Shown one piece after another: positions 45,783-54,650 of a stretch of DNA of 64,000 bases. Made by a program: the position numbers and the translations under genes. This stretch comes from Algoriphagus sp. Lineage in GTDB: Bacteria; Bacteroidota; Bacteroidia; Cytophagales; Cyclobacteriaceae. The stretch is from the NCBI RefSeq assembly GCF_030694375.1, contig NZ_JAUXYL010000020.1, positions 124,001 to 188,000 of the forward strand. The letters run 5' to 3'. A model generated the notes under the pieces. It was not told the DNA's origin, made no database searches, and saw only the letters and a list, made by a program, of their open reading frames with translations. Within the stretch, counting starts at the first letter, position 1. Each line of letters opens with the position of its first letter.

Positions 45783-45916
45783 GAACAATGCCGAGCTGCC
45801 AATTCGCCTTCTTTTTCAAACAATGGGGTGGTAAAAACAAAAAGAAAACTGGCCGAGAACTCAATGGACAAACCTATGATGAGATACCTGACGTGGAATT
45901 GGAAAAGTTTATTTAG
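45783..45916 (+). pseudogene. Frameshifted 3' relic of a DUF5131 gene
   Basis: Codons from 45783 read EQCRAAN, the usual wording shortly before the family's FFFKQWGG motif. One base is then missing at about 45803, and the shifted frame continues AFFFKQWGGKNKKKTG, RELNGQTYDEIPDVELEKFI, stop at 45914-45916. The intact gene at 47180 has the same C-terminus with FFFKQWGG, RELNGQTFDEMPEVELERFN. Across 36 codons I count 13 silent and 6 replacing changes, so it is a diverged old copy rather than a fresh duplicate. No start or N-terminal part (three-Cys motif) remains; the repeat block replaces it. Confidence 0.8.
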
Positions 45917-45922
45917 AAATTT

Positions 45923-50823: not shown

Positions 50824-52263
50824 TTAGCGTAGCGCTTCGGTTAAAACCTTGATAATCTCCTCCTGTATTTCGGAGATCTTCTTTTCGCTTGCCTGATATT
50901 TCTTTAGCAAGACTTCAGGACTTGCCAGATTATCAGCCTCCTGATGGGGATTTTTGATATCCAGATTGTATCCCCGGTTTTTGATCTCTTCAGCAGAAAC
51001 CTTCCAAGCATGTTGGCTGTAGGCTTCATTTTCCCGATCATTCCACCAGGCTTTTTCCAAGTCAAACTCCTTGATATGGATCGGTTTGCCCTTGTTGTAG
51101 CTCTTGACTCCATCCGGATAGGGATGCTCGAAATACCAGATCTCTTTGGTCTGTGGTCCTTTTTCGAAGAACAGCAAGTTGGTCTTAATTCCGGTGTAGG
51201 GATTAAACACGCCATTGGGAAGGCGCACGATGGTGTGCAGATTGCAGCGCTCCATCAGTTCTTCTTTGATTCGGGTTTTCACACCTTCGCCGAAGAGGGT
51301 GCCATCCGGCAAGACAACGGCACATCGACCGCCGTCTTTCAGCAGTCGGATGATCAGGGCCAAGAATAGATCGGCGGTTTCCTTGGTTCGGAACTTCTGT
51401 GGGAAATTCGTTTCGGTCCCGTCTTCTTCCACCCCGCCAAAAGGAGGGTTAGTAAGGATAATATCCACCTTGTCACTCGCTCCCCAGTCCGCATAAGGCT
51501 TGCTCAGGAGATTGTCTCTCCGCACCGCAGGCACATCAAAGCCATGCAGCATCAGGTTGGTGGTGCATAGCAAGTGGGGTAGGGGCTTTTTCTCTATCCC
51601 ACGAATAGTGGCTTGGAGATCACGCTCGTCTTGGTCGTTTTGAACCAGTGTTTTCTTGAAATCAATCGCGCAGGTAAGGAATCCGCCCGTCCCGCAAGCA
51701 GGGTCAAGAACTGTTTCCTTGAGTTGGGGATTGATAATATCCACCATAAACTGCGTCACCGCCCGCGGAGTGTAATACTCTCCCGATGAACCCGCCGACT
51801 GCAATTCTTTAAGAATCGTTTCGTAGAGGTCATTGAACAGGTGTCGGTCTTTGGAACTGTTGAAATCGATGCGGTTGATCTGATTGATGACCTGACGGAA
51901 GAGCGTTCCGTTTTTCATGTAGTTGTAGGTGTCCTCAAATACAGACCGGATAATCTTGGCTTGCGGGCTGATGCTGAAATCGAGTTCTTTCAAAGCTGGA
52001 AACAGCTCATTGTTGATAAAGTCCATCAGGGCATCGCCTGTCAGGCCTTCCTCGTTGGCGGCCCAAGTTTGCCATTTCAGTCTATTGGGAATCGGGCTTT
52101 GGTAGCCCTCGATGGTGATTTCCCATTCTTCTTCCTTATCTGCAAAAATCTTCATAAAAAGCATCCAGACCATTTGTGAGATGCGCTGTGCATCTCCGTC
52201 TACTCCTGTGTCCTTCCGCATGATATCGCGGATGCCTTTAATGTTGGTGGTAATTGTACTCAC
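50824..52263 (-). CDS. hsdM: Type I restriction-modification DNA methyltransferase
   Basis: A 479-aa N6-adenine methylase. Motif I is VLDPACGTGGF (residues 185-195); the catalytic motif IV is NPPF (272-275, ILTNPPFGG). The N-terminal helical bundle of HsdM is present (VWMLFMKIFADKEEEW). The start codon is GTG at 52263, overlapping the hsdR stop by one base (TAGTG), so translation is likely coupled. With HsdS it methylates, and with HsdR it restricts, DNA at one bipartite site. Confidence 0.96.
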   Translation of the reverse strand: MSTITTNIKGIRDIMRKDTGVDGDAQRISQMVWMLFMKIFADKEEEWEITIEGYQSPIPNRLKWQTWAANEEGLTGDALMDFINNELFPALKELDFSISPQAKIIRSVFEDTYNYMKNGTLFRQVINQINRIDFNSSKDRHLFNDLYETILKELQSAGSSGEYYTPRAVTQFMVDIINPQLKETVLDPACGTGGFLTCAIDFKKTLVQNDQDERDLQATIRGIEKKPLPHLLCTTNLMLHGFDVPAVRRDNLLSKPYADWGASDKVDIILTNPPFGGVEEDGTETNFPQKFRTKETADLFLALIIRLLKDGGRCAVVLPDGTLFGEGVKTRIKEELMERCNLHTIVRLPNGVFNPYTGIKTNLLFFEKGPQTKEIWYFEHPYPDGVKSYNKGKPIHIKEFDLEKAWWNDRENEAYSQHAWKVSAEEIKNRGYNLDIKNPHQEADNLASPEVLLKKYQASEKKISEIQEEIIKVLTEALR

Positions 52264-54650
52264 TAAGCGATGGATTTATATATTTCGTTTTCTAACTCTT
52301 TAATAGCGGCTTCAAAATCTTTTGTCTTACCAAATTCTCTAACTATTTCCACGGGTGACCCTAACTGAACAAACGGCTGTGCTTTTAGAAGACCTTTTTG
52401 TTCTATAGTAGTGATTCCCTCTTCTTCATACTTATCCAAAAGGGCATTCAATACCGCCTGAGCTTTTTCACTGTATTTGGCAAAGTAATTCCGCTTGCGA
52501 ACCTGCTCCGCCCGTTCCTTGCGAGTCAGCGGAGGCATATCAAAAGCCACATGGCAGATCAAATCAAACGCATCCATATCCTTGCCCACTTCCTCCCGCA
52601 AGGCATCAAGCAGAATTCCCTGCTCTGCAAGTTCCGCAAATAGCACCTCTTTCTTCTCTGTTTCTGTCCATCGCTTGATAAAAGCATCTAAGGAGCTGAA
52701 GTTCTGATCAATGTTTTTTCGGGTGTAATCCTTCAGGGATTCCGTGATCAATCTTCCGTCCGCTCCAAAATATTGAACCCGTTCATTGATTACCGTCACA
52801 GGAACATTGTTGACATAATACTTTCTTGGTTCGGGGTCCGGGTCAGGCTCGGGGATGTTGATATCAGGTGGAGTTGGGTTCAATTCTGGGCGATCATGAT
52901 CATTTACTTCATCAAAATCTTCTGACTCTTCTGATTCCCCCTCTACTTCCGGCGGGACTGGAGAATCGTCGATTCCAGGTTCGTAGATCTGAACCGGATC
53001 TCCATCAAAATCAGGATCAGCAAAAAGGTTGGTGGCTTTTCGGAAATCCATAATCGTGAAATATAGCTTTCCTTCGGCTTCCCGGATTCTTGTGCCTCTT
53101 CCCACGATCTGCTTGAATTCCGTCATCGAAGCGATGTTGGCTTCCAGCACGATTAGCTTGACCATTTTGGTGTCAATTCCTGTAGTCAGCATTTTAGACG
53201 TGGTTGCGATGACCGGGAATCGTTCTTCCACATCGGTAAAGTTGTCCAGTTCGCGTTTCCCGATCTCATCGTCACCTGTGATTTTGACGACATAATGCGG
53301 ATGCTTTGATACCAGATCAGCATTGGCGTTGATCAGAGCCTGTCGCATTCGCTGGGCATGTTCGATATCGATGCAGAAGACAATGGTCTTGGCAAATCGG
53401 TCGGTGGCTTTTAGGAATTGGGTAATCTTCTCGGCAATCAGCTGAGTTCGCTGATCGATGACCATTTTACGGTCGTAGTCCTTGAGATTATAGATTCGGT
53501 CTTTGATTTCATTACCGTATTTATCCAGCATTCCGGCAGAGGGTCGCCAGCCTTCATCCAAGTTGGTGGTGATTCGGACCACTTTATAAGGTGCCAAAAA
53601 ACCGTCCATAATTCCCTGTTTGAGAGAATAGGTATATACAGGTTCGCCGTAGTAATCCATATTGGAAATATCCTTGGTCTCCTTAGGCGTAGCAGTCATA
53701 CCGATCTGTGTGGCCCCTTCGAAATACTCCAAAACCTCCCGCCAAGCGGATGCCTCAGAAGCTGAACCCCGATGGCACTCGTCCACAACGATCAGGTCGA
53801 AAAAGTCTCTACTGAACTCCCTATAAGCGTTTTTTTCTTCTTCGTTGCTGGTCAAGCCCTGATAAAGCGCAAAGTAGATTTGGTAGGATTTATCAATCTT
53901 TCGGTTTTTGATGATATGCATGATATCATTTCCGAAAGGGGAGAAGTCACCATTTTTGGTTTGAGTCAATAAGGCATTTCGATCTGCAAGAAATAGAATC
54001 CGTTTTTTGATGCCTGTTTTCCAAAGCCTCCAGATCAGGTTGAAAGCGGTGTAAGTTTTACCGGTTCCGGTTGCCATGACCAACAGGATTCGATCTTGGT
54101 CTTTTGCAATGGCTTCGATGGCTCGGTTGACAGCATTCGCCTGATAATACCTTGGATTCATTCCAGAGTCATCGGCATGATATTCTTGCTCTATGATTTC
54201 CCTTTCCTTGGGAGTTTCGATTCCTTTATAGTTCAGGTATTTCTCCCAAAGTTCCTGAGGAGAGGGGAAATCGGACATGGAAAGCTCCCTTTCACGGGTT
54301 TCGCCATTCGTCTTGTCATGGAATACAAAAGAGTCGCCATTGGAAGTAAAGACAAAGGGAAGCTGAAGAATCTCTGAATACTCCAGGGCCTGCTGCATCC
54401 CAGCTCCGATTCCTTTGTTATTGTCTTTAGCTTCAATGATCGCTATTGGAATGTTTTTCTTGTAGTAAAGAATGTAATCCGCCCGCTTTCTTGTGCCTCT
54501 GGTATGGAGAGATCCTTGTACGATGATTCGCCCATCAGTAAAAAACACCTCTTCCCGGATCTGTTTTTGAATATCCCAACCCGCTTTTTTCAAAGCAGGG
54601 GTAATGAACTTCGTACAAATGTCTCGTTCGGTGAGGCTCTTTTTGTGCAT
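52263..54650 (-). CDS. hsdR: Type I restriction-modification endonuclease/translocase subunit
   Basis: A 795-aa protein. The PD-(D/E)XK nuclease lies near the N-terminus (RADYILYYKK with Asp58, then IIEAKD with Glu73 and Lys75). The SF2 helicase follows: Walker A ATGTGKT (193-199), DECH (290-293), the MTATPKET motif III and QIVGRGTRIREAEGK motif VI. It is the first gene of the hsdR-hsdM-hsdS-abiH operon. Shorter than many EcoKI-type HsdR proteins (about 1000 aa or more) but normal for the DEAD/DEAH type found in Bacteroidota. Confidence 0.96.
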   Translation of the reverse strand: MHKKSLTERDICTKFITPALKKAGWDIQKQIREEVFFTDGRIIVQGSLHTRGTRKRADYILYYKKNIPIAIIEAKDNNKGIGAGMQQALEYSEILQLPFVFTSNGDSFVFHDKTNGETRERELSMSDFPSPQELWEKYLNYKGIETPKEREIIEQEYHADDSGMNPRYYQANAVNRAIEAIAKDQDRILLVMATGTGKTYTAFNLIWRLWKTGIKKRILFLADRNALLTQTKNGDFSPFGNDIMHIIKNRKIDKSYQIYFALYQGLTSNEEEKNAYREFSRDFFDLIVVDECHRGSASEASAWREVLEYFEGATQIGMTATPKETKDISNMDYYGEPVYTYSLKQGIMDGFLAPYKVVRITTNLDEGWRPSAGMLDKYGNEIKDRIYNLKDYDRKMVIDQRTQLIAEKITQFLKATDRFAKTIVFCIDIEHAQRMRQALINANADLVSKHPHYVVKITGDDEIGKRELDNFTDVEERFPVIATTSKMLTTGIDTKMVKLIVLEANIASMTEFKQIVGRGTRIREAEGKLYFTIMDFRKATNLFADPDFDGDPVQIYEPGIDDSPVPPEVEGESEESEDFDEVNDHDRPELNPTPPDINIPEPDPDPEPRKYYVNNVPVTVINERVQYFGADGRLITESLKDYTRKNIDQNFSSLDAFIKRWTETEKKEVLFAELAEQGILLDALREEVGKDMDAFDLICHVAFDMPPLTRKERAEQVRKRNYFAKYSEKAQAVLNALLDKYEEEGITTIEQKGLLKAQPFVQLGSPVEIVREFGKTKDFEAAIKELENEIYKSIA

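Follow-up and report, generated by a model that had tools for sequence, protein, structure and literature searches.

The gene pair tcmP-DUF5131 lies in a compact defence-type island of Algoriphagus sp., within the window analysed here (64,000 nucleotides of contig NZ_JAUXYL010000020.1, positions 124,001 to 188,000). The pair may consist of two S-adenosylmethionine (SAM)-dependent enzymes which act on nucleic-acid bases and work in the conflict between cell and phage, a reading whose chance is close to even, if slightly below. DUF5131 would be the constant catalyst, a radical-SAM enzyme with its cluster on C19, C26 and C29. TcmP would be the exchangeable half, a base methyltransferase recognising the target and methylating or presenting it. 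Exchanging TcmP would alter the target, just as exchanging HsdS does, and the outcome would be a hypermodified base on invading or self nucleic acid, either DNA or RNA. Gene positions, linkage, cysteine conservation, differences between alleles at a single locus in one genus and presence in prophages are the direct observations on which this reading is built.

Predicted Folds and Linkage of TcmP and DUF5131

TcmP of the window (279 aa; 46338-47177, plus strand) scores 124.8 bits against TIGR04474, the TcmP model, whose cut-off is 53 bits, and 74 bits against PDC-M41A of PADLOC. It has no Pfam match at E 0.01. DUF5131 (242 aa; 47180-47908, plus strand) matches PF07505 with 335 bits, PDC-M41B with 431 bits and PDC-M30B with 421 bits. 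With a gap of 2 bp, the adjoining PDC-M41A and PDC-M41B genes constitute a PDC-M41 locus. In PHROGs, DUF5131 belongs to phrog_2045, annotated as unknown function (308 bits), and TcmP is without a match. The family is large, with at least 8000 scored relatives in a protein search, and some long forms of TcmP carry GMT-wHTH; the term GMT is absent from PMC10853773. One genome (G414, L255:4375-15020) has an 8.7-kb tandem of long TcmP and DUF5131, in which one TcmP copy shows motif I as GFFAGKGYD, not DFFAGKGYD.

The AlphaFold model of DUF5131, based on an alignment of 61 sequences (predicted local distance difference test, pLDDT, 88.7), has the radical-SAM barrel fold. Its matches are headed by spore photoproduct lyase, which leads by about 2 Z units at 12% identity, followed by viperin, SuiB, RlmN and lipoyl synthase. 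The motif C-x6-C-x2-C (C19, C26 and C29; 47234..47266, plus strand) is invariant in 61 aligned DUF5131 proteins, and so is G179-G180-E181-S182-G183. A preliminary description of this stretch had proposed the three cysteines as an iron-sulfur or radical-like site, and by the predicted fold they fit a radical-SAM site. DUF5131 is a predicted radical-SAM enzyme.

The TcmP model (67 sequences, pLDDT 91.8) shows a Rossmann methyltransferase fold near the RlmJ/Trm1 branch. RlmJ and Trm1, at about 11% identity, are the top matches, with other methyltransferases close. D146-P147 is invariant in both TcmP alignments, and DLFxGxG is invariant in the narrower one. TcmP is a predicted RlmJ/Trm1-like nucleic-acid methyltransferase, which agrees with its earlier proposal as a nucleotide- or RNA-modifying partner. 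Both folds are confident predictions, and a shared fold is not equal to a shared function.

A scan of GTDB with the TcmP profile yielded 63 loci, from Bacteroidota, Ignavibacteria, Acidobacteria, Gemmatimonadota, one Nitrospirales and records of Proteobacteria. DUF5131 was observed within about 300 nt of TcmP in 60 of them. Among the other three, L087 ends at a contig edge, tcmP of L093 is interrupted by about 4 kb, and in L121 the distance is 6.9 kb. The sequence splitting tcmP in L093 (L093:9965-14933) encodes two proteins, one of 1011 aa that matches the HsdM profile and one of 207 aa. Bacteroidota and Acidobacteria have tcmP ahead of DUF5131, the Gemmatimonadota records show the opposite order, and in most Alphaproteobacteria the two genes converge. 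That linkage is kept despite such rearrangement speaks for a joint function.

Among 296 Bacteroidota genomes, TcmP is above its cut-off in 36 and DUF5131 in 58. A full-length DUF5131 lies within 1.5 kb of TcmP at 33 of the 39 TcmP places above the cut-off, while TcmP above the cut-off stands beside 32 of the 49 full-length DUF5131 places. The two had been described as near-obligate partners; this holds for TcmP, which is mostly with DUF5131, and less so for DUF5131. In one genome (G074, L140:8995-11973), an intact and a broken DUF5131 bracket a DUF4411 protein and a 382-aa protein that matches PADLOC models of the RmrA/capP type. In 1485 pairwise comparisons of 54 loci and the window, TcmP averages 36% identity and DUF5131 55%, and the value for DUF5131 is the higher one in 1460. 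The G+C content of tcmP is below that of DUF5131 in 53 of the 54 loci.

Association with Restriction Genes and Prophages

The preliminary description had suggested that the neighbourhoods of such pairs be surveyed for defence genes, and the survey shows enrichment near restriction genes. An N6_Mtase match lies at most 3.5 kb from a full-length DUF5131 in at least 14 of 47 genomes (G000, G010, G022, G071, G092, G162, G185, G209, G216, G217, G260, G264, G269 and G291). When the genome of the window is excluded, at least 13 of 46 genomes in 6 of 34 genera are counted, where gene number and genome size would predict 0.76. Eight of the nine genomes of one genus, g48, are among them (0.33 expected); the remaining genomes give 5 of 37 (0.42 expected).

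In a Pfam comparison of 148 neighbour proteins, drawn at random from 212, N6_Mtase (11), HsdM_N (8), Methylase_S (7), EcoEI_R_C (5) and the ABC-3C domain CTD10 (3) were among the best 25 of 123 families. None of the five is among the best 25 of 207 families for 118 proteins from random regions, drawn from 160, where one match each may still occur. GMT-wHTH is present in five of the 148 proteins, which are probably long TcmPs rather than neighbours. Three RNase_E_G neighbour proteins in this comparison are other than the neighbours of the orphan DUF5131 genes in G207, G258 and G278. Searches with the Hsd proteins of the window found relatives in 16 of 57 Bacteroidota regions and 8 of 63 GTDB regions, and in 0 of 40 random regions. 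The enrichment is clear, and the sample is not fully independent.

In ten loci (L063, L084, L129, L130, L133, L136, L142, L161, L163 and L166), hsd genes flank the pair on both sides, all in the same orientation. The usual order is hsdR-tcmP-DUF5131-hsdS-hsdM, and L163 has hsdM-hsdS-tcmP-DUF5131-hsdR; some of these loci have other called genes interposed. In the nine loci of genus g48, identities are 90-98% for HsdM (8 loci), 83-96% for DUF5131 (9 loci), 81-96% for HsdR (7 loci) and 48-94% for HsdS. The tcmP slot differs between these loci. Five have a 295-aa form, L133 has a dissimilar and apparently interrupted form (25-29%), L130 has a 373-aa long form (TIGR04474 152 bits), and no TcmP was recognised in the slot of L138 and L148. 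The DNA similarity of L136, counted from the DUF5131 start codon, begins at -4 bp with L130, at 0 bp with L138 and at -2 bp with L148. Upstream of the gap at the tcmP slot, similarity returns in hsdR for L130 and L148; the stretch of L138 excludes hsdR. As the slot varies and DUF5131 is conserved, TcmP behaves as the part that is exchanged between alleles of the locus and DUF5131 as the constant part, in the manner of HsdS and HsdM. The hsd operons of L138 and L130 also hold genes for 300 and 573 aa beside DUF5131, of which those of L138 match PDC-M68A/B.

Phages carry the genes as well. DUF5131 was found in 159 of 50,697 phage records, and the TcmP of the window as query found none. In Gordonia phage Fairfaxidum, TcmP (TIGR04474 109 bits) is convergent with DUF5131, between the integrase and the immunity repressor. 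This TcmP and that of a Synechococcus phage (216 bits), used as queries, found TcmP in 4 and 2 phage records. Because so few records matched, most phage DUF5131 genes are without a TcmP findable by these queries; the phage and viral scans were made with one or two queries each, which find close relatives first. The TcmP profile found 31 IMG/VR contigs, which fall into 23 groups at 95% identity; all of them have a convergent DUF5131, and 25 show a 4-nt tail-to-tail overlap. Among the neighbours on these contigs, S24-type repressors were 6 and RecT 3 of the 84 proteins scanned, which were picked by eye from 168 called open reading frames (ORFs) on 23 of the 31 contigs.

TcmP is present on 11 of 72,556 plasmid records. 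In pSymA of Sinorhizobium meliloti (L230:5388-11049), tcmP (170 bits) stands 78 bp behind a gene for an 845-aa helicase; next, on the other strand, come DUF5131 and another TcmP, which scores 216 bits. By its position, the helicase gene is likely to be hna. SMa2245 hna and SMa2243 tcmP are grouped together in a passage of PMC12445080, and a passage of PMC12429752 gives four TcmP ORFs in S. meliloti prophages.

Several points weigh against two base-modifying enzymes in phage conflict. The x6-x2 spacing of the DUF5131 cysteines departs from the canonical radical-SAM C-x3-C-x2-C; radical-SAM members with other cysteine spacings exist. The nearest NCBIfam model, TIGR04471 rSAM_mob_pairA ('radical SAM mobile pair protein A'), gives DUF5131 94.3 bits, below its cut-off of 355. 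A search of the PDB by sequence found no credible relative of TcmP or DUF5131, and both enzyme assignments therefore rest on predicted folds. The solved spore photoproduct lyase is absent from the PDB sequence matches of DUF5131, both with one sequence (E up to 5) and with a profile (E up to 1). At 17 of the 49 full-length DUF5131 places, no TcmP above the cut-off was found, although two of them (G004 and G255) have an adjoining TcmP fragment. In three genomes of one genus (G207, G258 and G278), the DUF5131 without TcmP adjoins a MatE transporter, and aconitase X is near it in G258. Such places show that DUF5131 occurs on its own and does not have to serve defence. Eight of the 13 near-hsdM genomes are of one genus, all ten operon cases are from Bacteroidota, the GTDB and Bacteroidota sets share some loci (L085, L086 and L089 recur), and the random regions come from 20 long contigs, with a few overlapping. 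Phage carriage also fits a function serving the phage. The base, the nucleic acid and the order of the two enzymes are inferred.

The preliminary description had considered the pair a possible defence module. The enrichment near restriction genes favours this, and some DUF5131 genes stand in surroundings unrelated to defence, which the same description had named as counting against defence. The idea is not new, since PADLOC-DB 2.0.0 lists the pair as the candidates PDC-M41A/B and PDC-M30A/B. The strongest rival is that the pair is a modification module of phages, modifying phage DNA, or host RNA for the phage, to evade restriction; the bacterial islands would then be captured copies. The pair on all 31 IMG/VR contigs, 25 with the 4-nt overlap, the S24-type repressors and RecT nearby, the 159 phage records with DUF5131 and the position of the Fairfaxidum pair speak for such a module. 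The pair is, however, placed between hsd genes in several Bacteroidota genera and beside the likely hna gene, and genes adjoining repressors in prophages often protect the lysogen. This rival is considered unlikely. It is more improbable that the pair serves repair, with TcmP finding a base lesion from restriction, phage nucleases or UV and DUF5131 reversing it. Spore photoproduct lyase is the best fold match by about 2 Z units, but at 12% identity the match may reflect the common radical-SAM barrel alone. Neither the exchange of the partner within a genus nor the patchiness (58 of 296 genomes above the cut-off) is expected of repair genes.

A housekeeping pair for RNA modification, merely travelling with islands, would explain RlmJ, Trm1 and RlmN among the fold matches and the DUF5131 genes beside MatE. 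The patchy distribution, the association with restriction genes and prophages, and the fast-diverging, exchanged TcmP make it a poor candidate, with a low probability. Lower still is that of an effector which the restriction complex masks and which is released when a phage disables restriction. PrrC, an anticodon nuclease carried as cargo in hsd operons and masked by the restriction complex, is the precedent. The abstract of PMC3874168 describes how it is controlled by both a restriction protein and an anti-restriction peptide of the phage. The placement of the pair between hsdR and hsdS/hsdM suits such an effector; most pair regions, and the prophages, are nevertheless without hsd genes, and no nuclease is among the listed fold matches.

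The reading as two SAM-dependent enzymes in phage conflict can be extended to an immune system of base hypermodification. Here DUF5131 would be the constant radical enzyme and TcmP an HsdS-like swappable part which chooses the target base; the cassette in type I operons and prophages would set a second, radical-made mark of self and non-self. The full form is doubtful. If true, radical chemistry on nucleic acids themselves joins the restriction repertoire, with a radical-SAM enzyme and a base methyltransferase inside restriction operons.

Island Layout, Turnover and Relics

The island (45471..54766) is bordered on the left by a conserved c-type cytochrome/NHL-like gene (42753-45470) and on the right by a DsrE-like gene (54767-55207), limits which the preliminary description had not given. 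Every gene, position and strand in that description is borne out by the coordinates. The XRE-type helix-turn-helix (HTH) regulator (46225-45923, minus strand) matches PF01381 (42 bits) and PDC-M64C (51 bits). The following genes are also on the minus strand. AbiH (49083-47914) scores 84.1 bits against PF14253, above the cut-off of 30.9, and 28.8 bits against AbiH of PADLOC. HsdS (50819-49122; PF01420) has two specificity domains, seen as two Methylase_S stretches. HsdM (52263-50824) contains NPPF and matches PF02384 (N6_Mtase, 239 bits) and PF12161 (HsdM_N). HsdR (54650-52263) is of the EcoAI type (NF046051, 1178.6 bits). With hsdR, hsdM and hsdS together, the window carries a type I restriction-modification system. 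A YhcG-type PDDEXK nuclease (41428-42594; PADLOC PDC-S02 392 bits) is encoded shortly beyond the island, on the far side of the cytochrome-type gene.

DUF5131 and abiH meet tail to tail, as had been described, with 5 bp between them. The tight arrangement hsdR-hsdM-hsdS-abiH also agrees, with 38 bp between hsdS and abiH, 4 bp between hsdM and hsdS, and a 1-base overlap of hsdR and hsdM. No terminator-like site is listed on the minus strand in the hsdS-abiH interval, which is compatible with a single transcript and is not proof of one. The four genes are interpreted as a restriction operon of ordinary make-up, independent and ending in an abortive-infection gene. The G+C content is 33% in tcmP, 46% in DUF5131, 29% in abiH, 38% in hsdS, 49% in hsdM and 45% in hsdR (44% in the window), and as it differs between neighbouring genes, the island looks like a mosaic.

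The island had been called multi-layer, which is correct for this genome and not as a general pattern, as XRE and AbiH do not recur beside the pair. No homologue of either was found among the called genes of 120 pair regions (single-sequence searches, E 1e-10), and XRE is not supported as a conserved third member. Nor is AbiH supported as a recurrent companion of type I systems: an hsd-type gene adjoins it in one of 17 other AbiH genomes, with flanks of 1.5 kb covered. That AbiH may act as a second line when restriction fails is a proposal from its position alone.

XRE and tcmP diverge around a palindrome, as previously noted. It has exact 9-bp arms, AAAATACCC-AGTACA-GGGTATTTT, at 46268-46291. 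With up to 2 mismatches, 0.01 occurrences of the pattern are expected in the window and two were found; the second is an imperfect copy with 2 mismatches at 61195-61218. The palindrome is likely to be the XRE operator, at which the XRE protein would regulate. Its core was observed, among 224 loci, only in loci of the window's own genome, and no XRE was seen beside tcmP in Belliella kenyensis. In another genome (G456, L254:5116-6384), a different HTH_3 protein is convergent with an intact DUF5131, 255 bp behind it, as XRE is behind a DUF5131 relic in the window. This case counts against dismissal of an XRE-type companion.

The left flank gene and a xanthine-dehydrogenase-like gene on the right (56168-58468) have orthologues on one contig in four genomes of the same genus (G311, G331, G318 and G076). 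In these, the counterparts of the genes from 55693 onwards lie close to that of the cytochrome-type gene, with other genes between. The DsrE-like gene is present in G331 and G076, and was not seen at the spot in G311 and G318. The interval between the two flank genes is 10.7 kb in the window, 23.6 kb in G311, 19.0 kb in G331, 7.7 kb in G076 and 5.4 kb in G318. G311 is a close relative, with flank genes 92% and 98% identical to those of the window. At its spot (L225-L226) lies a type I R subunit unlike that of the window (24% to HsdR; 983 bits against REase_I of PADLOC), accompanied by an M subunit at 25%, by a helicase of 1249 aa with matches to DpdE and ZorD models, and by Fic and PIN_3 proteins. 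No restriction genes were seen at the spot in G331, G318 and G076 by BLAST with the window proteins and by eye. As relatives hold other or no restriction genes between the same flanks, the spot is a turnover site. The island is genuine, compact and replaceable, and of the defence type.

A direct repeat of 123 bp with 80% identity (45801-45923 and 47793-47915), missed in the preliminary description, was observed. Its left copy contains the remnant of a second, otherwise lost DUF5131 gene (45801..45916, plus strand), a 3' relic of the last ~37 codons and the stop, which matches positions 202-238 of 241 of PDC-M41B with 47.5 bits. XRE and tcmP sit between the relic and the intact DUF5131. The relic shows 82% identity over 135 bp to the DUF5131 gene of Belliella kenyensis and 80% to the intact DUF5131 end, and is thus no fresh copy of the adjoining gene. 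In the fetched stretches of G456 (L250-L253), two intact DUF5131 genes and six solo 3' ends are present; three of the six lie ~4 kb apart on the same strand in L252. The solo 3' end of L251 is flanked by CRISPR-array-like regular repeats and by a Gabija-like pair of an AAA_15/OLD-like TOPRIM protein and a UvrD helicase. Three relics (window, L250 and L251) start near one codon, about 206.

In genus g48, the DNA before the tcmP slot repeatedly contains pieces of 90-150 bp from the 3' end of hsdR (L136, L130, L148 and others). These pieces and the DUF5131 relics resemble scars left at gene ends by the exchange of cassettes. The 3' end of DUF5131 was considered as a recombination site and not accepted as one. 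Fragments of the 3' end only occur in 6 genomes (G000, G094, G123, G124, G456 and G561) and 5' fragments in 4 (G074, G094, G117 and G402), no large excess in a count which leaves out internal pieces in G157, G205 and G270. No integrase gene was seen by eye beside the DUF5131 3' ends. As the 3' excess is small and no integrase was seen, a site-specific mechanism is not claimed.

Comparison with Known Systems

No description of a TcmP-DUF5131 function was found in the open-licence PMC literature, a scope outside which preprints lie. The closest entries are PDC-M41 (short TcmP and DUF5131) and PDC-M30 (long TcmP and DUF5131) of PADLOC. Both window proteins match, and the long TcmPs of L125 and L126 match PDC-M30A. 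These are catalogue entries without a mechanism, to which the predicted folds, the operon position, the partner exchange and the prophage carriage are added here. In a passage of PMC10855318, PDC-M30 is reported in 32 P. aeruginosa strains, 68.8% of which are phage resistant, as a correlation only.

DUF5131 differs from spore photoproduct lyase (SplB) in length (242 against 340 residues), in its x6-x2 cysteine spacing and in its linked methyltransferase, besides the low identity given above. Viperins are radical-SAM enzymes in antiviral defence and produce altered nucleotides. In contrast to prokaryotic viperins, DUF5131 has TcmP as partner, and its matches in PADLOC, which presumably includes a viperin model, are PDC-M41B and PDC-M30B only, with none named viperin. 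TcmP, at about 11% identity to the base methyltransferases RlmJ (23S rRNA) and Trm1 (tRNA), is unlike them in being exchanged within a genus and, in some long forms, in carrying GMT-wHTH.

Type I systems with embedded cargo such as PrrC resemble the ten surveyed loci, in which the cargo is inside the hsd operon. The difference is that the cargo is a predicted modification pair, which in the window is beside the operon, not inside it. Hna of S. meliloti is similar in that tcmP is directly behind the likely hna gene. It differs in that Hna is a helicase, and the passage of PMC12445080 assigns TcmP no part in Hna.

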